Below, in pieces: positions 3,175 to 14,468 of a DNA stretch of 47,850 nt. Source of the DNA: Desulfobulbaceae bacterium (GTDB lineage: Bacteria > Desulfobacterota > Desulfobulbia > Desulfobulbales > Desulfobulbaceae); contig JANTGH010000009.1 of NCBI GenBank assembly GCA_024763055.1, positions 1-47,850 of the forward strand, written 5' to 3'. Below the pieces are notes generated by a model that saw only the letters and a list, made by a program, of their open reading frames with translations, had not been told where the DNA came from and did no database searches. The translations under genes were made by a program, and so were the position numbers. Positions within the stretch are counted from its first letter, which is position 1, and every line of letters starts with the position of its first letter.

Positions 3175-6000
3175 TCAGGAGCTCAGGCTTCGGACCACGT
3201 CACAACAACGGGCGCACAGGGTCGGATGTTCATCATCCCTGCCCACGGAATCTTCAATTACCCAGCAGCGTTCGCATTTTGCACCGGTTGCAGGCCTGAC
3301 CCCAATGGTCATCCCCTCCACATCCTCGGCCATACCAATTTCCATGCCCTCGCCTTTCTCTAACCTGTCGACCATCTGCAGACTGGAAACAATGCACAGC
3401 TCTTTAATAAGTTCAAGATTTTCCGCTAAAAAATCCCCGAGTTCGCCACCGGCTTCAAGCAGGACTGCTGCATCCAGGGAAAGCCCGATCACCTTGTCGC
3501 GCCGGGCAGCCTCAAGGACCCTGGTAATCTCGCCGCGAATCTGCAACAGTCGCTCCCATCGATCATCCAGTTTTTTATCCGACGCAATATCATCGACCTT
3601 CGGAAATTCAGTGAAGAAGACGGATTGTGATAACGGCGCGTCCTGGGCCAGGCCATGAAAATATTCCCAGGCCTCGGCGGTTGTAAAGCAAAGAATGGGC
3701 GCCATCAATCGCAACAGGCCGTCAAGGATTCTATAAATCACGGTCTGGGCTGCTCGGCGTTTTGGATCATCGGGTAGGGAACAGTACAGCCGGTCTTTTA
3801 AGATATCCATGTACAGGCTGGAAACAACGGTGCCGCAAAAGTTATGCAGACTGTGATAGATGGCATGAAATTCATATTCTTGATAGGCCCTGATCACTCG
3901 TTGCACCAGTTCGGCATATCGACTGAGTGCCCAGCGATCAAGTTCGGTGAAGGATTCTTCGGAAACCGTGTGCTGTTCAGGATCAAAATCCGATAAATTA
4001 CTGAGAAGAAAACGGATGGTGTTGCGCATCTTTCGGTAGGCGTCGGAGACGTGTTTCAAGATTTCATCGGAAACCTTGACATCATCTTGATAGTTCTCAC
4101 TCGCCACCCAGAGCCGCAACACCTCGGCGCCGTACTTGTCGATCACCTCCTGGGGAGCAACGACATTGCCCACGGACTTGGACATTTTCTTACCCTGCCC
4201 GTCCACAACATACCCATGGGTAAGCACCCCTTTAAATGGAGCGCGGCCCCGGGTTCCCACCGAGGTCAACAGGGAGGACTGAAACCAGCCACGATGCTGA
4301 TCGCTGCCTTCAAGATAAAGATCTGCCGGGGAACGAAGCTCGCTGCGCCGCTCAAGAACCGCTGCATGGCTGGTGCCGGAATCAAACCAGACATCAAGGA
4401 TGTCTGTTTCTTTACGAAACGCGGTTGATCCGCAGGAACACTGCACGTCTGCGCCGACAAAATCAGCGGCCTCGTATTTAAACCAGGCATCAGCGCCTTC
4501 CCGCGCGAACAGTTCCTCAATCCGGGTGCAGACCTGCCTGTTTTTCAGCACTTCGCCGCATTTGGCGCAGGTCAGCACGGTAAGAGGCACACCCCAGGAA
4601 CGCTGCCGGGAAAGGCACCAGTCCGGCCTGGACTCCACCATGCCGTAAATACGCTGCTTGCCCCAGGCCGGTGTCCAGATAACCTCGTCAATGGCCTTGA
4701 GCGCCTTTTGGCGAAGGTCGTTTTTTTCCATGGAGATAAACCACTGCTCAGTGGCCCGGTAGATAACCGGTTTTTTACATCGCCAGCAGTGGGGATAACT
4801 ATGAACAAGGGCCGCCTCCCTGATGAGAGAGCCGTCCGCAGCCATATCATCGTTGATCTCCCGGTTGACCTCGGGCACCTGTCTGCCCTCGTATTTTCCG
4901 GCTTCAGCAGTGTAACAGCCGACATCATCCACGGGCGAAAGAATTTCAAGTCCATAGCGAAGCCCGGTCAAATAATCGTCAGCGCCATGTCCAGGCGCGG
5001 TATGGACGCAGCCGGTACCGGATTCAGCCGTGACATAATCGGCAAGCACGAGCAGAGAATCACGGTCCATAAAGGGATGCCGACATTTTTTTCCCTCAAG
5101 CACGGTCGCGTCAAAGGTGGCAAGCACCGTATAATCGTCAATGCCGAATTCAGCAAAGCACTGCTCGACAAGTTCTTTGGCAAGAATCCATACCTCACCG
5201 CCGGTTTCAACAGCGGCATAGACAAAATCAGGATGAAAGGCCACGCCCATGTTTGCGGGCAGGGTCCAGGGTGTTGTAGTCCATATTACAACCGAGACCG
5301 CACGACCGCTCAGTTCCGGCGCAATTTTCACCGGATCATTTTTAAGCGGAAACTTGACATAAATTGAAGGTGAGGTGTGATCGGCATAATCAACCTCTGC
5401 CTCGGCCAGGGCCGTATTACAGGTGGAACACCAGTACACCGGCTTTCGTGAACGAACAACGGAACCCGACAGCAGAAATGTATTAAATTCAGCGGCAATA
5501 TCGGCTTCATATTGAAAATTCATGGTCAGATAGGGATTTTCCCACTCACCAAGTACGCCCAATCGCTTAAATTGATTTCTTTGTGTTTTTATCCATTTTT
5601 CCGCATACTTTCGGCAGGCTCCACGCTTGGCAAGCAGCGGAATGGTCTGTTTCTTTTCTCCCAGCTCCTTGTCCACATTATGCTCGATGGGCAGGCCGTG
5701 ACAATCCCATCCCGGAACATAGGGCGCGTCAAAACCGGCCATCCGACGCGAGCGGAGAATAATATCTTTCAGCACCTTGTTAAAGGCGGTGCCAAGATGA
5801 ATATTGCCGTTGGCATAGGGCGGGCCGTCATGGAGAATATATTGCGGCCGTCCTTTGGTTGCCTCTTGCCATTGATGATACAGATCTTCCCTGTCCCAGC
5901 GTTTCAGATACATCGGCTCTTTCTGGGTCAGGTTGGCCTTCATTTTGAACTTGGTTTTGGGCAGATTCAGTGTGTCCCTGTAGTCCATGCTCTTACTCAT
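3175..6000 (-). CDS. ileS: Isoleucyl-tRNA synthetase
   Basis: IleS charges tRNA-Ile and edits misactivated valine. The 941-residue class I synthetase shows PYANGNIHLG with the HIGH-type signature (68-71), KMSKS at about 605-609, the GWDCHGLPIE segment typical of IleS, and a C-terminal zinc site formed by CERC and CARCC (about 905-935). It heads the ileS-lspA-fabD operon. The ATG at 6000 has no recognisable Shine-Dalgarno sequence. It lies two bases after the stop of a 22-codon upstream ORF, so translation may be coupled to that ORF. Met5 is an alternative start. Confidence 0.98.
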   Translation of the reverse strand: MSKSMDYRDTLNLPKTKFKMKANLTQKEPMYLKRWDREDLYHQWQEATKGRPQYILHDGPPYANGNIHLGTAFNKVLKDIILRSRRMAGFDAPYVPGWDCHGLPIEHNVDKELGEKKQTIPLLAKRGACRKYAEKWIKTQRNQFKRLGVLGEWENPYLTMNFQYEADIAAEFNTFLLSGSVVRSRKPVYWCSTCNTALAEAEVDYADHTSPSIYVKFPLKNDPVKIAPELSGRAVSVVIWTTTPWTLPANMGVAFHPDFVYAAVETGGEVWILAKELVEQCFAEFGIDDYTVLATFDATVLEGKKCRHPFMDRDSLLVLADYVTAESGTGCVHTAPGHGADDYLTGLRYGLEILSPVDDVGCYTAEAGKYEGRQVPEVNREINDDMAADGSLIREAALVHSYPHCWRCKKPVIYRATEQWFISMEKNDLRQKALKAIDEVIWTPAWGKQRIYGMVESRPDWCLSRQRSWGVPLTVLTCAKCGEVLKNRQVCTRIEELFAREGADAWFKYEAADFVGADVQCSCGSTAFRKETDILDVWFDSGTSHAAVLERRSELRSPADLYLEGSDQHRGWFQSSLLTSVGTRGRAPFKGVLTHGYVVDGQGKKMSKSVGNVVAPQEVIDKYGAEVLRLWVASENYQDDVKVSDEILKHVSDAYRKMRNTIRFLLSNLSDFDPEQHTVSEESFTELDRWALSRYAELVQRVIRAYQEYEFHAIYHSLHNFCGTVVSSLYMDILKDRLYCSLPDDPKRRAAQTVIYRILDGLLRLMAPILCFTTAEAWEYFHGLAQDAPLSQSVFFTEFPKVDDIASDKKLDDRWERLLQIRGEITRVLEAARRDKVIGLSLDAAVLLEAGGELGDFLAENLELIKELCIVSSLQMVDRLEKGEGMEIGMAEDVEGMTIGVRPATGAKCERCWVIEDSVGRDDEHPTLCARCCDVVRSLSS

Positions 6001-6002
6001 AA

Positions 6003-6071
6003 TTAAGGGTTGGCAAAATCAGAAAAATCCGGGCAATCCCGGAGGATAATTACAAAAACAAGGCTCTTCAT
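6003..6071 (-). CDS. Candidate leader peptide for ileS, rich in branched-chain codons
   Basis: This 22-codon ORF (MKSLVFVIILRDCPDF...) lies between a good promoter and ileS. Residues 4-10 are LVFVIIL, with two consecutive Ile codons at 6045-6050. The 5' arm of an intrinsic terminator begins two bases after the second Ile codon. The stop codon is two bases before the ileS ATG. The layout is that expected of an amino-acid-sensing attenuator: a ribosome stalled for lack of charged tRNA-Ile would cover the terminator arm. The weak point is its ribosome site (only CGAG seven bases upstream). Translation of this ORF is inferred, not shown. Confidence 0.45.
   Translation of the reverse strand: MKSLVFVIILRDCPDFSDFANP
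6023..6043 (-). terminator. Intrinsic terminator or attenuator upstream of ileS
   Basis: On the minus strand TCCGGG-ATTG-CCCGGA forms a six-pair stem with a four-base loop, followed at once by TTTTT. It lies only 23 bases before the ileS start and inside the candidate leader ORF. It therefore cannot simply end the cobO transcript unless the ileS promoter (seen at 6145-6172) reads through it. An upstream CCGGA (6083-6087) could pair with the TCCGG arm as a competing fold. Confidence 0.6.
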
Positions 6072-6172: not shown

Positions 6173-6213
6173 GGGAAAAGGCGGGGCGCCGGCCAAATGG
6201 CGCAAGAAACAGG

Positions 6214-6747
6214 TTAAAACTCAATCCCCTTCTGAGCCTTGACGCCCTTTGCATAGGGATGTTTGATCTCCCGCATATCGGTCACAAGATCAGCAGCCTC
6301 GATGAGCCCGGGGCTTGCGCCGCGACCGGTAACAACCACATGCATGCCGGCCGGCCGGGAAGAAAGTCCGGCAAGAAGATCCTCTTCACTGATCATTTTA
6401 TAGGTGACAAGGTAGGTCAGCTCGTCAAGAATAACCAACTGATGTTGATTCTTCCGAAGAATTTCACATGCAAATTTCCAGGCCGCGCGGGCCTTGGCAA
6501 TGTCTTTTTCCAGGTCATCCGACTTCCAGGTAAAGCCTCTGCCCATCACATGCACATCAAACATGTCGGCAAAACATCCAGCCGATTTGAGTTCCCCGGA
6601 CTGCCGGTCCCCCTTGATGAACTGGACCATTGCCACTCTTTGTCCGTGCCCAAGGGCGCGAAACGCAAGACCCAGGGCCGCCGTTGTCTTGCCTTTGCCG
6701 TTGCCGGTAAAAACCAGCAGCAACCCTTTTTTTCCGGTTTTCTTCAT
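6214..6747 (-). CDS. cobO: Cob(I)alamin adenosyltransferase (CobO/BtuR type)
   Basis: The enzyme transfers the adenosyl group of ATP to the cobalt of cob(I)alamin or its corrinoid precursors, making coenzyme B12 forms. The 177-residue protein has the P-loop GNGKGKTTA (15-23), AMVQFIKGD and the conserved VILDELTY segment, all diagnostic of the CobA/CobO/BtuR family. It overlaps the end of the upstream methyltransferase gene by four bases (ATGA), so the two are translationally coupled. No other cobalamin gene is visible nearby. The window does not show whether it serves synthesis or salvage. Confidence 0.95.
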   Translation of the reverse strand: MKKTGKKGLLLVFTGNGKGKTTAALGLAFRALGHGQRVAMVQFIKGDRQSGELKSAGCFADMFDVHVMGRGFTWKSDDLEKDIAKARAAWKFACEILRKNQHQLVILDELTYLVTYKMISEEDLLAGLSSRPAGMHVVVTGRGASPGLIEAADLVTDMREIKHPYAKGVKAQKGIEF

Positions 6748-7343
6748 CTGGGCCCTCTCTTGCTTCTCGTGGTTACAGCCGCCGGATGTTGCGGCAAGCC
6801 ATCAGTAAGGGGGCGTCCATGCTGGCGAACATATTCATACAGAACAATTGAGGTGGCAACGCTGACATTTAAACTCTGGACGTGTCCCCACTGGGGAATG
6901 GAAAAGGAGGCTATCTCAGGGTATGATGTTCTGTCAAAACTCAAACCAAATTCCTCATGCCCAAAAATAAAAGCCGATTTTTTCGGCAGACTCTTCGCAC
7001 CCAATATCTTCTGTTGCCCGGGTTCAAAAATTATACTAGAATATCCGCGTCCTGCAACCTCCTGGTAACAGGCATCAAAATTTTCATGTTGAAAAAATGG
7101 TATCCAGCGCACCGAACCCTTGGCCGGATCGGGGTCAAAAAACTCTATGTTCACAAGATGTATTTCACGAATGCTGAAGGCATCAGCAGTCCTGAAAATT
7201 TTACCAATATTAAAGTCGGGTTTCAGGCCATCCAGGATGACAATACAGGGATGGAGTCCCGGTGCGGCCCCCACCATGTTTCTTCTTGCCGCCCGGATGA
7301 AGCGGGCATGCATATCAAGCCTTCGCTTGCGTTTGCGCCGCAT
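6744..7343 (-). CDS. SpoU/TrmH-family RNA 2'-O-ribose methyltransferase
   Basis: This family uses S-adenosylmethionine to methylate ribose in tRNA or rRNA through a trefoil-knot fold. The 199-residue protein shows motif 1 (FNIGKIFRTADAF, with Asn and Arg), motif 2 (FIFGHEEFGLS) and motif 3 (SIPQWGHVQSLNVSVATSIVLYE). There is no N-terminal substrate-binding domain of the RlmB type, which fits TrmH-like enzymes, but the target base cannot be read from sequence. The lysine/arginine-rich start may bind RNA. The gene overlaps cobO by four bases. Met11 is an alternative start. Confidence 0.9.
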   Translation of the reverse strand: MRRKRKRRLDMHARFIRAARRNMVGAAPGLHPCIVILDGLKPDFNIGKIFRTADAFSIREIHLVNIEFFDPDPAKGSVRWIPFFQHENFDACYQEVAGRGYSSIIFEPGQQKILGAKSLPKKSAFIFGHEEFGLSFDRTSYPEIASFSIPQWGHVQSLNVSVATSIVLYEYVRQHGRPLTDGLPQHPAAVTTRSKRGPR

Positions 7344-7820
7344 GGTTTCACTTGCAAAGTAGACTTTTTTCTGACAGTATAATCACTCAGCAGAGTACCT
7401 TGAAAAATCAGGTTTTTTGTTCAGCGGAGCAGCTCGAGGTCTGCGAAAAATTTTACCCCAGACACCAAGCCGTTAGCGTGGTTCCAAAGATACAATTTTG
7501 AGCATAACGCCGAGGTTGAATAAAAAGACAATTTTTTCAGGTGACCTGTAAATTCATTGCCCGTGTACTACCATAAAACAAACAAAATGTACCAGGACAA
7601 AATAACCCCTTCTATTGCGAATCAGTACAGCGAGTGTAATTTTCAGGTCCACCCGCAAACATGATACTGTTATGCTGTTAGGGAAAATCAGTACAGCGAG
7701 TGTAATTTTCAGGTCCACCCGCAAACATGATACTGTTATGCTGTTAGGGAAATCAGCCAAAGTCTCACTGTTTGGTGGCCGATTCCTGAACAAATCACGT
7801 AGAAGAACAGGAGTAGAGCG
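7344..7820. other. Non-coding gap between divergent genes, with a tandem repeat
   Basis: These 477 bases separate the minus-strand methyltransferase gene from the plus-strand zinc-ribbon gene. I see no supported gene, RNA or terminator. The only clear structure is the 66-bp duplication at 7621-7752. A minus-strand open frame crosses the duplication but has no start signal or family resemblance and is not annotated. Confidence 0.6.
7621..7752. repeat. Perfect 66-bp tandem duplication
   Basis: Two adjacent identical copies occupy 7621-7686 and 7687-7752, each starting ATCAGTACAGCGAGTG and ending GTTAGGGAAA. Only the run of A at the junction varies. Identity implies a recent duplication or slippage event. 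It lies 69 bases upstream of the TTG start at 7821 and might duplicate a regulatory site. Confidence 0.95.
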
Positions 7821-8387
7821 TTGACAAAACAAAAGACCGACTGTTGTGATCTTTGCGGACAGCAAAAAAAACTGCAGGTTCATGGCAACCGGCAGGTCTG
7901 TTCAACCTGCAAAGCCATTATCAGTCATGTGAAAAATCATCCGGACGAGATAAAAAAAGTCTGGTGTGAACTCTATGATGAACCCATCCTGCCCCGTTCA
8001 CAGCATCATCCCTTACAAGATGAGGGCGAATTGCCGGACGTGCTGGATGGAAAACGATACCGGACCGTGGACCGGGAAGATAATAAATGGTATCTTTCTA
8101 TCAGTGAGGTTGATGGAAATCCGGTGGAAGTCTTTGCCTCAACAGCCTTTGACCGTGATAATGAGCTGCAGTCACGCATCTCCAACCTGACAACCATTAC
8201 CCGGCTTATTTCGCTCATGCTTCGCCATATATTTCTTGGCGAACGGTTGACCCTTGAAAAATGCCTGAAACAAATAAAGCGCAGCTCCCGCCAACGGGAC
8301 GACCTGCCCGATATGCTTTACGGCGTCTTGAGCCGTTACTCACGGCAAGAGGCGACCCCATCATCCGACGATCACCAAAGCGCGTAA
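7821..8387 (+). CDS. Stand-alone zinc-ribbon plus TSCPD-like domain protein
   Basis: The 188-residue protein starts at TTG, chosen because AGGAG (7809-7813) precedes it at good spacing and the first internal Met is far inside. Residues 8-32 hold two CxxC knuckles (CDLC and CSTC), a likely zinc ribbon. Residues 72-168 (DVLDGKRYRTVDREDNKWYL..ISEVDGNPVEVF ... RLISLMLRHIFLGE..LEKCLKQIKR) resemble the TSCPD domain at the C-terminus of B12-dependent class II ribonucleotide reductase NrdJ. The catalytic barrel of NrdJ is absent, so it cannot be a reductase by itself. A role in regulating or assisting NrdJ is possible but inferred. No nrd gene is in the window. It precedes the stressosome-like operon by 359 bases. 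Confidence 0.85.
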   Translation: MTKQKTDCCDLCGQQKKLQVHGNRQVCSTCKAIISHVKNHPDEIKKVWCELYDEPILPRSQHHPLQDEGELPDVLDGKRYRTVDREDNKWYLSISEVDGNPVEVFASTAFDRDNELQSRISNLTTITRLISLMLRHIFLGERLTLEKCLKQIKRSSRQRDDLPDMLYGVLSRYSRQEATPSSDDHQSA

Positions 8388-8746
8388 TCAATCTCAACAA
8401 ACAACGCTGCCAATCACGTCTGTGACCAGTCACAGGATATACCTGCAATTAGAGCATCACACGACAGTGCGCTTTGATACGCGTGGAAGAAAAGGGAAAT
8501 AAAGAGTATTATAGCCCCTAAATTCACGGACCTCAAAAACCGGGACCAAAAAAAGGAGTTTCCAAGTGCATACACTGTCCTCGAAACTTTTCGGAACTTC
8601 TCCGTGCGAAACTTAACGAAGGACGGCGGTTTCCCTGACAGCCTGAACGTTGTATCCTAATGAATTTAAAGGATAAATAGTTGCACAGGAAAGCGATATT
8701 CATTTTCCTGCTCAACACGTTAACTTTTTATACAGGAGGAGACGAT
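8388..8746. other. Non-coding gap upstream of the stressosome-like operon
   Basis: These 359 bases hold no gene I can support. A weak sigma-54-like element, GG (8671-8672) then ten bases then GC (8683-8684) in the context AGGATA...TTGCAC, lies about 60 bases before the MBL gene, but only the TTGCA half fits well. A TTG-initiated extension of the next gene through 8681 is possible but lacks the strong ribosome site found at 8734-8740. Confidence 0.4.
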
Positions 8747-9490
8747 ATGATCACTTACACCATTCATCCCATTGTTATGGGCAGTAAGGTCTTTGACAAG
8801 GGGATGATGACCTACCAGTTTGACTACGGTACTCCCTATATCATACCTATCTACTGCTGGTATCTTGAAGGAGGTGATAAAAAAATTCTGATCGATACCG
8901 GAGAAATGCATCCGGTAATTTCCGAAGACCGGGAAAAGGCCATCAATGGAAAGATTTTTACCTTTGAGCAGGGGTTGGCACGGCATGGCCTTACGCCCGA
9001 GGATATCGACGCAGTCATTCACACCCACCTCCACTCCGATCACTGTGAAAACGATTACAAATGTACCAACGCCAGGTTTTACATCCACGAGAAGGAGCTT
9101 GTGACTATCAGCAATCCCCATCCTCTGGATTACCGCTATGTTGAAGATTTTATTTTTGAAATCCATGAAGCAGGCCAGATAGAGATAGTCCATGAGGACC
9201 AGGAGCTTTTCCCCGGTATTTCCGTCATGCACACACCGGCACATACTCCTGGTGGTATGACCGTGTTTATAGATACGGCCAGGGGCAAAACCGCTATCAC
9301 CGGTTTTTGTGTTATCAGGGAAAACTTTGAGCCGCCGGTTCAGATCAAGGCCATGGAAATGGAGGTCATCCCTCCCGGCACCAACATCAACAGCTATGAT
9401 GCCTACGACATGCTGATCAAGATCAGGGATATGGCTGATTACATTATTCCACTCCATGAGCCTGAGTTTGCATCAATGGACAGTATTTGA
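8747..9490 (+). CDS. MBL-fold metallo-hydrolase, lactonase-like
   Basis: The ATG at 8747 is preceded by AGGAGGA at six-base spacing, giving 247 residues. The signature HTHLHSDH (92-99, HxHxDH) binds two metals, with His166 in PAHTPGG and His237 in PLHEPE as further ligands. The overall layout resembles the N-acyl-homoserine-lactonase branch. The bridging Asp usually found in a TGD motif is missing: the site reads TGFCVI (185-190). Cys188 could serve as a ligand as in class B1 beta-lactamases, though the exact register is uncertain. It is the first gene of a five-gene unit, 23 bases before the RsbR-like gene, so it is probably linked to stress signalling. The substrate is unknown. Confidence 0.85.
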   Translation: MITYTIHPIVMGSKVFDKGMMTYQFDYGTPYIIPIYCWYLEGGDKKILIDTGEMHPVISEDREKAINGKIFTFEQGLARHGLTPEDIDAVIHTHLHSDHCENDYKCTNARFYIHEKELVTISNPHPLDYRYVEDFIFEIHEAGQIEIVHEDQELFPGISVMHTPAHTPGGMTVFIDTARGKTAITGFCVIRENFEPPVQIKAMEMEVIPPGTNINSYDAYDMLIKIRDMADYIIPLHEPEFASMDSI

Positions 9491-9513
9491 ATCACGAAAT
9501 ACAGGAGCATTTC

Positions 9514-10410
9514 ATGAAAGATTTATCTGAAATAAATTTGGATGAAGGTTTTCTCTCCGAAATCATCAATGCGATTACCTCGGGTATCTTTGTCACGGAC
9601 CTGGAAAATAATATCCTGATGATCAACCGGGCAGGGGCCAAGATGGTTGGCAAGAGTTCCGGTGACTGCTTTGACCGCAAATGTTACGATATTTTTGATA
9701 CCCCCATGTGTCAAACCAATGAATGTACCTGCAAGATCGCCACCACAAATAAAGTTGTCAACCATGGAGAAACCATGCTCCATGTTGACGGTCGTGAAAT
9801 TCCCATCGAGTTTACCAGCCGGCCGCTGAAGAATTTTGAAGGGGAAATCATAGGCTGCGTGGAAAACTTTATCGATATCTCTGAACGGCTGGAAAAAGAC
9901 CGGATCATCATGGAGCAGAAGGAAGAACTGCTCAAAAAACGCGAAGAAGACATCCGTCATCTACAAGACGAGATTCTGGAGTTGTCCACCCCGGTCATAG
10001 AAGTCTGGAACGGGATCGTTGCCCTGCCCTTGATCGGCACCCTGGACAGCCACCGGGCTCATATAGCCATGCAGCGTCTGCTGGAATCCATTGAACAGAC
10101 ACGTTCTTCCTTTGTGATCATCGATATCACCGGTGTGCCAACTGTGGACAGTGAAGTTGCCTCCCATGTCCTGCAGACGGCAGGGGCAGTACGGCTTATG
10201 GGTTGCGAAACCATCCTTACCGGGGTTGGACCACATATTGCGCGGGTTATCAGCGAGGGGAATGTCGATCTTGAAAATATTATAGTGCAGGCTCGCATGA
10301 CCGACGGCCTGCACTATGCCATTGGCAAGCTGGCTGAACGCAAGGAGAGAATGAACCGTGTTGCATCGCTCATCGAAGTGAGCGGCAGTCGTTCCGGGCA
10401 TAATAGATAG
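9514..10410 (+). CDS. rsbR: RsbR-like stressosome protein (PAS plus STAS)
   Basis: AGGAG (9503-9507) six bases before the ATG sets the start, giving 298 residues. Residues 11-125 form a PAS sensor with five cysteines between 52 and 73 (GDCFDRKC, MCQTNECTC). Residues 125-160 are a charged coiled coil. Residues 165-275 are a STAS domain of RsbR type: DITGVPTVDSEVASHV, then AVRLMG and TGVGPHIARVI. Thr206 matches the phosphorylated Thr of RsbR proteins. The second known Thr site appears to be Val245, judged from memory of RsbRA rather than by alignment. RsbR proteins build the stressosome shell with RsbS and hold RsbT until a signal releases it. The next gene starts eight bases on. Confidence 0.9.
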   Translation: MKDLSEINLDEGFLSEIINAITSGIFVTDLENNILMINRAGAKMVGKSSGDCFDRKCYDIFDTPMCQTNECTCKIATTNKVVNHGETMLHVDGREIPIEFTSRPLKNFEGEIIGCVENFIDISERLEKDRIIMEQKEELLKKREEDIRHLQDEILELSTPVIEVWNGIVALPLIGTLDSHRAHIAMQRLLESIEQTRSSFVIIDITGVPTVDSEVASHVLQTAGAVRLMGCETILTGVGPHIARVISEGNVDLENIIVQARMTDGLHYAIGKLAERKERMNRVASLIEVSGSRSGHNR

Positions 10411-10418
10411 GATTTGGC

Positions 10419-10802
10419 GTGGAATTGTTTTCAGTTTTTTCCCTGGGCGAAATTCTGCTGGTTTCCATTGAAGAGCAGATTGATGATTCTTCGGTGCGTG
10501 TCTTGCTGGATAAGGTCAGTGAAATGGTCAACAGACAGAATCTGTACGGAGTGATAGTCGACCTGCAGAGCCTTGAAGTTATGGATTCCTTTCTGGCAGA
10601 CCATCTGCAACAGCTTGCCAGGACCCTGAAACTGCAGGATGCGGCGCTGGTCATTGCCGGACTCGGAGTGCCCGTGGTCATGACCCTGCTTGATTTTGAC
10701 ATCAAATTACCGGATCTTGTCTTTGCCCTGGATGTGGAACAGGCACTGCTTCTATTGCAGGAACGGAACGGCAGGGAAGAGGGTAATGGTCCTCTGCAGT
10801 GA
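10419..10802 (+). CDS. rsbS: RsbS-like STAS scaffold protein
   Basis: This 127-residue protein is a single STAS domain. It starts at GTG, six bases after AGGA (10409-10412). The key segment is DLQSLEVMDSFLADHL, where Ser57 corresponds to the Ser that RsbT phosphorylates in RsbS to let RsbT leave the complex. The segment VVMTLLDFDIKLPDLVFALDVEQAL completes the fold. It lies between RsbR-like and RsbT-like genes, the standard order of stressosome modules. It overlaps the next gene by 17 bases, so expression is coupled. Confidence 0.9.
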   Translation: MELFSVFSLGEILLVSIEEQIDDSSVRVLLDKVSEMVNRQNLYGVIVDLQSLEVMDSFLADHLQQLARTLKLQDAALVIAGLGVPVVMTLLDFDIKLPDLVFALDVEQALLLLQERNGREEGNGPLQ

Positions 10803-11889
10803 GCTTGCCATCCGCAGCGAAGCTGATGTTGCTCTTGCCAGACACAGTGCCGGCGAAAAGGCCATGCAACTGGGATTTCCGGACCAGCGGCGGGCCGAGG
10901 TGCGGCTCATTGCCAGCGAACTTGCCCACAATCACCTGGACCATAAAACTTCCGATGGCTTGGTTCGTATCAGTGCTCAGTTGGTTGACGGTATGCCGGT
11001 CCTGACAATCTGCTCCCTGGACAGCGGGCCGGGTATACCCAATGTGGCAGATGTTCTGCAGGGAGCAAAGGGAGGATATCGTTCCCTTACCGGTCTCGGC
11101 GCAGGCATGGCCTCGGTTTCCCGACTGGCAGACCGCTTTTCCTGTTGTTCGTCAGCCGACCCGCATGTCGGCTGTTCAGCCCAACTGGGCGGACAATGGC
11201 AGGGAACAGTAGTTACTGCCCGATGCTGGCCACAGGAACAGGTGCCGCCTTTGTTTGACAGGAACGATATGGATATTGCCGCCCTGGTCTGTGGCCGCTC
11301 TGAAACAACTCCCTGCGGAGACGGAGTTTTTATCAGCTCAGACAACAGGTTTATCCGTATTGTCCTGGTTGACAGCCCAGGTAAGGGCAGGGGCGGGGGT
11401 GAAACCGATCTTATCGGACAAATGCTTGCAAGATTTGACATGATATGGCCGCCGGATCACGTTATGGAATCGTTGTCAGAGGTATTTGCCGCAGAGCCGG
11501 CAACGGCGGTTTGTGTGCTTCGTTTTGATCGCTTGTTAGCTGAACTGCGCTGTTGTCGAATCGGTAATATCGGCATCCACTTGTTGGTAGACGACCTGCC
11601 GGATACACCGCCGAATCCGTTGGCTGTGGAAAGGGCAAAGCTGATCCAGGGGACTGATAGTGTCTACAAAGTTTCGGGTAGTACGGCCTGTCTGCTGTAT
11701 TCAGACGGAGTGACCGGATTTGGCGGGAGAGAAATCTCTCCCCTGCTCATGGAGTTGCAGGCCGGACGAAGGCAGCCGACTGAAAAGCACTGCCCTGACA
11801 CCGCTTTGCTGATCCAGATGCTGTTTTCACGGTACCGGAAGACACAGGATGATGCCGCCCTGTGTCTCTGGAGCTGGCAGAGAAAATGA
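10786..11889 (+). CDS. RsbT-like kinase fused to RsbX/SpoIIE-like phosphatase
   Basis: The ATG at 10786 follows GGGAAGAGGG closely, giving 367 residues. Residues 8-150 are a GHKL ATPase of RsbT type: ASELAHNHL (Glu45, Asn49), DSGPGI (79-84) and GLGAGM (103-108). Residues 165-367 resemble the PP2C-like RsbX/SpoIIE fold: GDGVFI, VDSPGKGRGGG in place of the usual DGLGHG, RIGNIGIHL, YSDGVTGF and a final QDDAALCLW, keeping the acidic metal ligands. In separate-gene systems RsbT phosphorylates RsbR/RsbS and RsbX removes the phosphates, so the fusion would join both halves of the cycle in one chain. That is inference. It overlaps rsbS by 17 bases and the next gene by four. Confidence 0.88.
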   Translation: MVLCSELAIRSEADVALARHSAGEKAMQLGFPDQRRAEVRLIASELAHNHLDHKTSDGLVRISAQLVDGMPVLTICSLDSGPGIPNVADVLQGAKGGYRSLTGLGAGMASVSRLADRFSCCSSADPHVGCSAQLGGQWQGTVVTARCWPQEQVPPLFDRNDMDIAALVCGRSETTPCGDGVFISSDNRFIRIVLVDSPGKGRGGGETDLIGQMLARFDMIWPPDHVMESLSEVFAAEPATAVCVLRFDRLLAELRCCRIGNIGIHLLVDDLPDTPPNPLAVERAKLIQGTDSVYKVSGSTACLLYSDGVTGFGGREISPLLMELQAGRRQPTEKHCPDTALLIQMLFSRYRKTQDDAALCLWSWQRK

Positions 11890-13193
11890 TGATAGACAAA
11901 CCACACCATGTGTTGACCCTGGTTATCCAGAAAGAGACGGATATTCCCCGGATACGCTCCAAGGTAAAACTGCTTGTGCGGGCCATTGACGCACCGGTGC
12001 GGCAGGTGGTCGGCCTTGCCGTCGGCGCCTCGGAGACAGCCCGATTGCTGTTGCAGAAGTATGGAGGCGGCAAGGTTCGTATTTCTTTGTTTCCGCAGAA
12101 AATAATGAATATTGATTGCGGGGTGGAGCTTCTTTTCCACGGAAAAACCTCTTGTCTTAAGGGGCGGATCTGTCCCGTGGACGAACAGGCCTTGCTGGTT
12201 TTACCCCCCTTTCCAGGCTTGATGACTGTTTTTGATTCCGTCCAGGTTCAGGGAGGAACCGGGGGCAGAAAGATTACTATTATCTGTCGTAACATCAGAC
12301 TTGGGGTTACCTGGGAGGAGGTACACAAGCGGTTGTCCTCCATCCGTGGAGAGCTGTTTGCAGATACCGAGGAGTCGTATGTGGAAAATCTGCGGGCCAA
12401 GCATGACGAGGTGGTCCGTCTGCTCCAGGAAAAGACTGAGAAAAATCGTTTGCTGGATCAGTCCAACAACGAGTTGCTTCAGCTCAGCAATGATTTGGAA
12501 AAATTGGCCCGGGAGCGTACCATTATTGAGATGTCGCTTAGAATTGCCGACCAGGTGCGCAACCCGGCAACCGTGATTGGGGGTATGGCCCGGCGATTAA
12601 TGGAAAAAGGAAACCTGACCGGCAGGGAACAGAAAAAAATACAAGTTATTGCATCAGAGGCGGAAAAGATTGAAGCGCTTGTCAAGCAGTTTAATACCAT
12701 GGCCGCGGAAAGGAGAACGCTCTTTGCCCGTGAAGACCTGGTTCTCTTAATCGAGGATGCCCTTCAGACTTGTCCGACACTGCAGAGTAAAAATATCAGG
12801 GTAAAACTTTATGCTCCTCCGAAACCGGTTGAAATCCATGCCAACCGACAGGTGCTTAAAGTTGCCCTGGTTCATATTTTGCGTTATCTCACCAGACAGT
12901 TGCCAGAAGGTGAGGGACTATCTGTTGATATTGGTAAGGGCATGGAACCACGGTTGACTATTAACTGTAAGCTTGATTCCGTCGAACACATGGGTTCAGA
13001 AAAACCGACTGCTATGGATAGTGCAACTGAATCCGACAAGGCTAAAGGACTGGAACTGGTACGGCAGATTCTGACTGAACACCAGGCTGAATTTACAGTA
13101 GAGAGTAATGCCGAAGGCAAGGTGGCGGTCAGTATCCGTTTTCCGAGAGTTTTCCATGAACAGTGGACAACTCCCACAGGAAGCACTGAATAG
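11886..13193 (+). CDS. Degenerate RsbT-like plus histidine-kinase-like protein
   Basis: The ATG at 11886 overlaps the previous stop (ATGA), giving 435 residues. Residues 5-135 look like an RsbT-type GHKL fold (ETDIPRIRSKVKLLVRAI, GASETARLLLQKYGGGKVRIS) but lack the DxGPGI and GLGxG boxes. Residues 150-215 form a long coiled coil. The dimerisation helix reads RIADQVRNPATVIGG, so Asp222 stands where the phospho-accepting His belongs. The terminal part (ANRQVLKVALVHILRYL ... KGLELVRQILTEH) keeps the shape of a HATPase but not its Asn and Gly boxes. It is thus probably a pseudokinase or binding protein, and by position a candidate output partner of the stressosome. No transmembrane segment is seen. 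Confidence 0.8.
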   Translation: MMIDKPHHVLTLVIQKETDIPRIRSKVKLLVRAIDAPVRQVVGLAVGASETARLLLQKYGGGKVRISLFPQKIMNIDCGVELLFHGKTSCLKGRICPVDEQALLVLPPFPGLMTVFDSVQVQGGTGGRKITIICRNIRLGVTWEEVHKRLSSIRGELFADTEESYVENLRAKHDEVVRLLQEKTEKNRLLDQSNNELLQLSNDLEKLARERTIIEMSLRIADQVRNPATVIGGMARRLMEKGNLTGREQKKIQVIASEAEKIEALVKQFNTMAAERRTLFAREDLVLLIEDALQTCPTLQSKNIRVKLYAPPKPVEIHANRQVLKVALVHILRYLTRQLPEGEGLSVDIGKGMEPRLTINCKLDSVEHMGSEKPTAMDSATESDKAKGLELVRQILTEHQAEFTVESNAEGKVAVSIRFPRVFHEQWTTPTGSTE

Positions 13194-13400: not shown

Positions 13401-14468
13401 TTACTTCTTCTTTGCTCCCTTCCCGAAGAGTTTCAGATACTCTCCATATCCCTGCCCCTGCATTTCATCTTTGGGAACAAAGCGAAGGGCCGCTGAATTG
13501 ATGCAGTAGCGCAGTCCGGTGGGAGCAGGACCATCCTCAAAGACATGCCCTAAATGCGAGTCCCCATGTTTGCTGCGCACTTCGGTGCGGACAAAAAAGA
13601 GCCTCCGGTCTTTGCGTTCAACAATATTCTCCTTTGTAACAGGCTGAGTGAAGCTGGGCCAACCGGTCCCGGACTTGAACTTGTCCGTTGACGAAAAAAG
13701 CGGCTCACCAGAGACAATATCCACATAAATTCCCTCCTGTTTATTGTTCCAATAGGGGTTATCATAGGGTCGTTCCGTCCCCTCTTCCTGGGTCACCTCC
13801 CATTGCAAAGGGGTAAGCCTTTTTTTCAACTCGGCATTATTTGGCCGGACATACTGTTTTGGAGCGGGAACATCCCTATTTTTCCATGTTTTTTTCTGAA
13901 ATTCCGCTCGGCCGGATCCGGTTTTATACATGGAATAATGCATGACGTTTTTTCTGTAATAATCCTGGTGGTACTCTTCTGCCCTGTAAAAGGCCGCGGC
14001 AGGCAGGATGGCGGTAATTACCGGCTTATCAAAAATACCGGATGCATCCAATGCCTTTTTTGAGGCTTCGGCAATCTGTTCCTGTTCCTCGTCAAGGTAA
14101 AAGATTGCGGTGAAATACTGAGTGCCCCGGTCGGCAAATTGTCCCCCGTCATCGGTTGGATCAATCTGACGCCAGAAAATATCAAGCAATTCTTTGTAAC
14201 TGACCTTATCCGGATCATACACCACCTCGACTGCCTCATAATGGCCAGTCATGCCGGAGCCGACTTCTTCATACGTCGGATTTTCCGTCCTGCCGCCGGT
14301 ATAGCCGGCAGCAACGTCAATCACTCCTTTTGTATTCTCAAAAGGCGGCTCCATACACCAGAAGCAGCCGCCGGCAAAGATTGCTCTTTTCTGTTCAGCC
14401 ATAGTCATCTGCACCTGCACGATAAATAAAAATAAAAAAATAAGGCAAGATATTCGTATCCATTGCAT
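13401..14468 (-). CDS. msrAB: Exported bifunctional methionine sulfoxide reductase MsrA/MsrB
   Basis: The protein repairs oxidised methionine, with MsrA acting on the S form and MsrB on the R form of the sulfoxide. Residues 1-24 are a signal peptide or anchor, so it acts outside the cytoplasm. The MsrA domain (28-190) has GCFWCMEP with catalytic Cys35. The MsrB domain (about 210-340) has SGTGWPSF and [11 protein letters not shown] with catalytic Cys322. The CxxC zinc pairs of many MsrBs are absent. GGAGG eight bases before the ATG supports the start at 14468. It converges on the stressosome-like operon, separated by 207 bases with no clear terminator. Confidence 0.96.

Follow-up and report, generated by a model that had tools for sequence, protein, structure and literature searches.

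The operon at positions 8747-13193 of the window (the whole stretch of DNA that was analysed, 47,850 nucleotides) is a real stress-sensing gene set that is conserved in sulfur-cycle bacteria. Its novelty lies in the absence of a free RsbT combined with a conserved last protein which, judged by its sequence and predicted structure, is best described as a pseudo-histidine kinase headed by a pseudo-RsbT domain. The operon bears on how stressosomes that have neither RsbU nor SigB deliver their signal. The last protein, which has an RsbT-like domain of its own, has lost histidine kinase catalysis and has kept the dimerisation core, offers a concrete and testable way in which a Ser/Thr partner switch could reach a histidine kinase.

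Gene order and distribution of the operon

The five genes lie on the plus strand and encode an MBL-fold hydrolase (8747-9490), an RsbR-like protein (9514-10410, in a frame that opens at TTG 9487), an RsbS-like protein (10419-10802, GTG start), the T'X fusion (10786-11889, ATG start, 367 aa) and the pseudo-histidine kinase (11886-13193, 435 aa). The order and coordinates given in the original prediction are exact, as are the gaps of 23 and 8 bases and the overlaps of 17 and 4. The genome bin to which the window belongs, as contig C9, measures 4.17 Mb and is 97% complete. Misbinning of the contig is ruled out by its ileS gene, which is 84-86% identical to that of the same genus.

The same gene order was found in 13 named MAG contigs and in dozens of genomes and is thus not due to chance. 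Nearly all of the named relatives are MAGs of Desulfobulbaceae or Deltaproteobacteria, Desulfobulbus and Desulfurivibrio among them. In the order to which the window belongs, a profile search with the fusion detected full operons in 18 of 258 genomes, and in a second order in 25 of 46; across the phylum, 42 of 395 genomes have matches to the fusion profile, some of them partial. The gene order R-S-(T)-TX-PK, where PK is the pseudo-histidine kinase, is constant across the loci compared. In sister lineages, a separate RsbT gene is positioned between RsbS and TX. In the window clade and some others this gene is absent, and RsbS abuts or overlaps TX. No match to a sigma-54 promoter was found upstream of the operon in 8380-8746, and an Rfam search found no RNA elements. 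A minus-strand ORF at 7554-7883 contains a perfect internal repeat (FPNSITVSCLRVDLKITLAVLI twice); it lies upstream of the operon and is probably a DNA repeat.

The product of the first gene has a Lactamase_B match (61.5 bits, Pfam) and the HxHxDH motif, and belongs to the AiiA (N-acyl-homoserine lactonase)/4-pyridoxolactonase group. The AiiA-type dinuclear Zn ligand set is incomplete in this protein, as the bridging Asp (D191 in AiiA numbering) is Gly in all aligned homologues. Despite this Gly, the family is 80-87% conserved between genera, with a dN/dS of 0.05. In the related genome G002, the gene (L025 10573-10824) codes for only 83 aa with both ends kept, owing to either an in-frame internal deletion or an assembly collapse.

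The lack of RsbU and of a sigma factor had been considered unusual. The absence of RsbU stands: no match to the SpoIIE/RsbU-type family (PF07228) was detected at E <= 0.001 in the whole genome bin (97% complete), and control genomes were positive in the same search. Such a lack is nevertheless ordinary, because rsbRSTX modules without RsbU and SigB are widespread (PMC9237108). Some of the published RSTX modules that have no RsbU feed phosphorelays or c-di-GMP enzymes, and in V. vulnificus an interaction between RsbT and D1 could not be demonstrated (PMC9237108).

The STAS core and the T'X fusion

The RsbR-like product contains PAS and STAS domains and the RsbS-like product a STAS domain (Pfam). 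The best structure matches of the former are RsbR (6qcm and 9o3z, E 1e-25 to 3e-26), and that of the latter is the solved RsbS (E 3e-13). The RsbR-like protein has the expected N-terminal sensor, here a PAS domain, in front of an RsbR-type STAS domain. The presence of a stressosome-like core is supported by these matches at the level of the genes. Only one further STAS protein is encoded in the genome bin.

Ser57 of RsbS, which had been proposed as a phosphorylation site, aligns at the RsbS phosphosite, and this position is Ser or Thr in all 42 loci with data. The RsbR site had been misplaced. Counted from ATG 9514, Thr206 is the Thr in a DITGVP motif and no phosphosite; it is S179 and S213 that align with T171 and T205 of B. 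subtilis RsbR. The second of these positions is Thr in 17 of 17 operons that have RsbT; in operons without RsbT it is Ala (14), Ser (8), Glu (1) or Thr (1). As no more than one or two independent pairs remain on the tree, the association between the loss of RsbT and the loss of the second Thr is suggestive only, and it was dropped as stand-alone evidence.

The Cys-rich PAS domain of RsbR (9514-9900) carries a conserved pattern, CFDRKC...MC...CxC (CTC in the window), which is lost in locus L087. The cysteines point to a sensor of the thiol, metal or Fe-S type. An msrAB-like fusion gene (13401-14468) is convergent with the operon, at the place where relatives have a histidine kinase. With this cysteine pattern and msrAB adjoining, RsbR might receive a redox signal.

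The fusion protein consists of two domains, both encoded on the plus strand. The T' domain (10786-11235) is an RsbT-like GHKL ATPase, in which the N (Asn49), G1 (D79xGPG) and G2 (GLGAG) boxes are intact. The X domain (11263-11889) is an RsbX-type PP2C phosphatase with conserved Asp179, Asp196, Asp307 and Asp356. The full-length product has an HATPase_c_2 match of 31.4 bits, and the X half alone has no match in Pfam. A profile made from a 14-sequence alignment of the X half finds B. subtilis RsbX (3w40, E 8.7e-11) and Moorella MtX (3zt9, E 6e-9). In the AlphaFold model of the fusion, which is of modest confidence (pLDDT 66), the predicted fold of the X half matches RsbX (Z 17.1) and MtX (Z 16.2), and that of the T' half matches SpoIIAB (Z 15.5). 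The profile and fold matches to RsbX rule out a C-terminal half of 10786-11889 that is not of the PP2C type and agree with the original prediction. With its PP2C fold, metal-binding Asp residues and RsbX as the closest match, the X half belongs with the RsbX feedback phosphatases. In two loci (L088 5640-6602 and L124 1532-2560), T' is kept and the X half is altered or missing and no longer recognisable, which indicates that the X half is not indispensable.

The kinase half of the proposed RsbT-RsbX fusion is a different matter. Beside T', a separate RsbT occurs in Xanthomonas, in Deinococcus and in many Desulfobacterota; in 18 loci the orthologous fusion adjoins a stand-alone RsbT. In an unrooted tree of RsbT-like domains, the fused domains all fall on one side of a branch with 98/97 support, and the stand-alone RsbT and the domains fused to histidine kinases fall on the other. 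The 18 loci and this branch together argue that T' is a paralogue of RsbT. That T' is RsbT itself is disfavoured by the same branch, although one alternative placement, in which the window-type T' joins the sister lineages' stand-alone RsbT, is not rejected by the AU test (p 0.22). The ATP-site N and D of T' are kept in 43 of 43 loci, including those without RsbT, and T' may therefore have taken over the work of RsbT.

No stand-alone RsbT can be assigned in the window: the operon has no room for one, and the fused domain is the paralogue. No stand-alone protein of the size of RsbT or RsbW is present among the HATPase_c_2 matches listed for the genome. The fusion of a kinase with a phosphatase had been noted as one of the surprises of this operon. 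The fusion is widespread, and the oddity is the missing free RsbT. Nor is the fusion itself new, since the annotated plasmids of Xanthomonas, Phaeobacter and Deinococcus show RsbT, a T'-containing protein in the fourth slot and a histidine kinase in the same layout.

The last gene and its putative histidine kinase partner

The last protein comprises three parts, all encoded on the plus strand. Residues 5-139 (11898-12302) form a cryptic SpoIIAB/RsbT-like fold, the predicted structure of which matches SpoIIAB (1th8, Z 15.6, VIA-align). The ATP-site Asn of this domain is missing in all homologues (42 of 42). In the tree, the domain clusters (96/97) with RsbT-like domains from other operons, where they stand in front of a true histidine kinase in the same slot. 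It is followed by a conserved coiled coil and DHp-like helices (12333-12710), in which the H-box His is replaced by Gln223 (ADQVRNP), and by a degenerate histidine kinase CA (HATPase) domain (12723-13160), in which the N-box Asn is replaced by Tyr. The Pfam HisKA match is below the cut-off (22.3 bits). The fold of the C-terminal half matches histidine kinase domains, among them DivL (4q20, Z 16.9) and RetS/GacS (7n0e, Z 15.9).

None of the 42 homologues has the phospho-accepting His, the position being Q, R, K or S instead. The N-box Asn is intact in 29 of the 42 and lost in the window protein and 12 relatives, a single change on the tree, and the window protein accordingly has no functional ATP site of the HisKA kinase type. 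The gene had been described as decayed. Its dN/dS of about 0.15 rules out a decaying pseudogene, and the purifying selection is strongest in the coil and DHp region (0.05-0.09) and weakest in the CA domain (0.12-0.25). These values indicate that the protein is maintained and that its dimerisation core matters most. That a protein without the His serves as the output, as had been proposed, is still the likeliest reading of the sequences. In family f91, two loci encode, directly 3' of the pseudokinase gene, proteins without a Pfam match (833 aa, L082 1714-4215; 529 aa, L086 2935-4524), which are possible alternative outputs.

The set had been thought to be bracketed by the hydrolase and the last kinase. 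In relatives of family f1, a true histidine kinase with intact HisKA and HATPase domains follows, and the order is mutL-MBL-R-S-TX-PK-PAS-HK. The window genome has no histidine kinase after the pseudokinase, and keeps the orthologue (64%) as an orphan PAS-histidine kinase on contig C51 (L097, about 4997-6052), between mutL (6190-8001) and hisD (3206-4528), at the ancestral site of the operon. In genus g1, the kinase and the operon are both present in G000 (the window genome), G002, G003 and G006 and both absent in G001, G004, G005 and G007. This co-occurrence is informative for an unlinked pair only in G000, because in most f1 genomes with both, the two lie side by side. No adjacent histidine kinase of the f1 PAS-HK type was found in the f3 relatives examined (L039-L043).

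The window operon is 73% like that of a genome from another genus, G027 (TX 73%, RsbR 88%), and 42-47% like those of its own genus. The mismatch between the operon and ileS with regard to the closest genus suggests that the operon was replaced horizontally and that the resident histidine kinase was retained. In other lineages, the fifth slot holds a true histidine kinase (Xanthomonas, Deinococcus and L089-L092), and its N-terminal RsbT-like domain is intact in Deinococcus, L091 and L092. Elsewhere, a PilS-like membrane histidine kinase and an NtrC-type sigma-54 response regulator immediately precede the R-S-(T)-TX-PK operon (L078 10058-11602, L079 270-1706 and L087 9453-10856). The graded loss in the family, from true histidine kinases to kinases without the His and then to those without the His or the ATP site, makes it a natural set in which to test the requirements of a pseudo-histidine kinase.

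A possible partner switch and its relation to known systems

By combining these observations, it is possible to outline a rewired partner switch, in which the pseudo-histidine kinase would be the output and would control a true histidine kinase, in the way DivL acts on CckA or RetS on GacS (PMC9491836, PMC12189002). We give this mechanism an even chance. What the sequences show is the domain composition, which residues are retained or lost, the gene order, the co-occurrence and the selection; from these we infer complex formation, phosphorylation, release and histidine kinase control. RsbR, with its Cys-rich PAS sensor, and RsbS would form the STAS core, to which T'X would bind. T', whose ATP site is the only live one among the RsbT-like domains, would phosphorylate Ser57 of RsbS as well as RsbR, and the X half would strip the phosphates from both proteins and reset the core. 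The dead RsbT-like head of the pseudokinase could in principle dock on the same STAS surface, and the phosphorylation state of the core would then decide whether the pseudokinase is held or released. Once free, the pseudokinase would pair through its DHp and coil region with the cognate PAS-histidine kinase (G000:C51; the next gene in relatives) and set its activity.

It is also conceivable that the fusion is RsbT joined to RsbX, that one chain both phosphorylates and resets the core, and that the last gene is the output. The catalytic residues of both halves are intact, the bin has no other RsbT among the HATPase_c_2 matches listed, and the AU test tolerates the placement with stand-alone RsbT. 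The loci in which the fusion stands beside RsbT and the well-supported branch make this reading unlikely; they mark the fused domain as a paralogue, though one that may do the job of RsbT here. If T' bound ATP and the core without phosphorylating it, signalling would be allosteric, and the Ser and Ala at the RsbR sites would reflect a relaxed need for a kinase. The distribution of Thr at the second RsbR site is in line with such a scaffold, but comes from one or two independent evolutionary pairs. The phosphosite of RsbS is kept throughout, and the retained Asp residues of the X half imply a substrate to dephosphorylate, so that a phosphorylation-independent scaffold appears rather improbable.

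The pseudokinase itself might still be an enzyme which, with an intact CA domain, phosphorylates a Ser or Thr of RsbS or of a partner instead of its own His. This agrees with the N-box Asn in most homologues. The loss of this residue in the window and 12 relatives and the weak constraint on the CA domain leave little probability for it. It is most improbable that the operon is a horizontally acquired, functionless remnant heading to loss. Its similarity to the operon of another genus would fit such an origin, but all five frames are intact and their dN/dS values are 0.05-0.18.

The partner switch with a pseudo-histidine kinase output might represent a separate stressosome class, a tentative proposal to which we assign a somewhat less than even chance. 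In such a class the RsbT-like domains would be hard-wired, the live one to the resetting phosphatase and the dead one to a histidine kinase without its His, and a two-component kinase would be gated directly without a free RsbT, RsbU or sigma factor. No open-access paper was found that describes a stressosome joined to a pseudo-histidine kinase; an older survey of RST output modules may already describe the R-S-T-T'X-HK arrangement.

The minimal RSTX modules of Vibrio vulnificus, V. brasiliensis and Moorella likewise have an RsbR with a sensor and a STAS domain, RsbS, an RsbT-like kinase domain, RsbX, no SigB cascade and a signalling gene downstream. The window operon differs from them in having no free RsbT and a T' paralogue fused to X, a PAS sensor in place of a globin, and, in place of a DGC or a true histidine kinase, a downstream histidine kinase homologue that has no His and carries a dead RsbT-like N-domain. 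The R-S-T-T'X-HK operons of Xanthomonas vasicola pXVH29, Phaeobacter pP97_a and Deinococcus MP1, annotated as 'anti-sigma regulatory factor / ATP-binding SpoIIE family protein phosphatase / ATP-binding protein', share the gene order, T' with a C-terminal domain in the fourth slot and a histidine kinase in the fifth. Unlike the window operon, they keep a stand-alone RsbT, and the kinase of Xanthomonas and Deinococcus retains both the His and a live ATPase domain. A Paraburkholderia record contains the T, T'X and HK plus response-regulator part of this layout. The RsbRSTUVW-SigB-RsbX system of B. subtilis and Listeria has homologues of RsbR, RsbS and RsbX in common with the window, which lacks RsbT, RsbU, RsbV, RsbW and SigB. 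DivL and RetS, finally, share the histidine kinase fold and act on another histidine kinase (CckA and GacS, respectively) through complex formation, and DivL, like the window pseudokinase, has no canonical phospho-His; neither of them, however, is tied to a stressosome or carries an RsbT-like domain.
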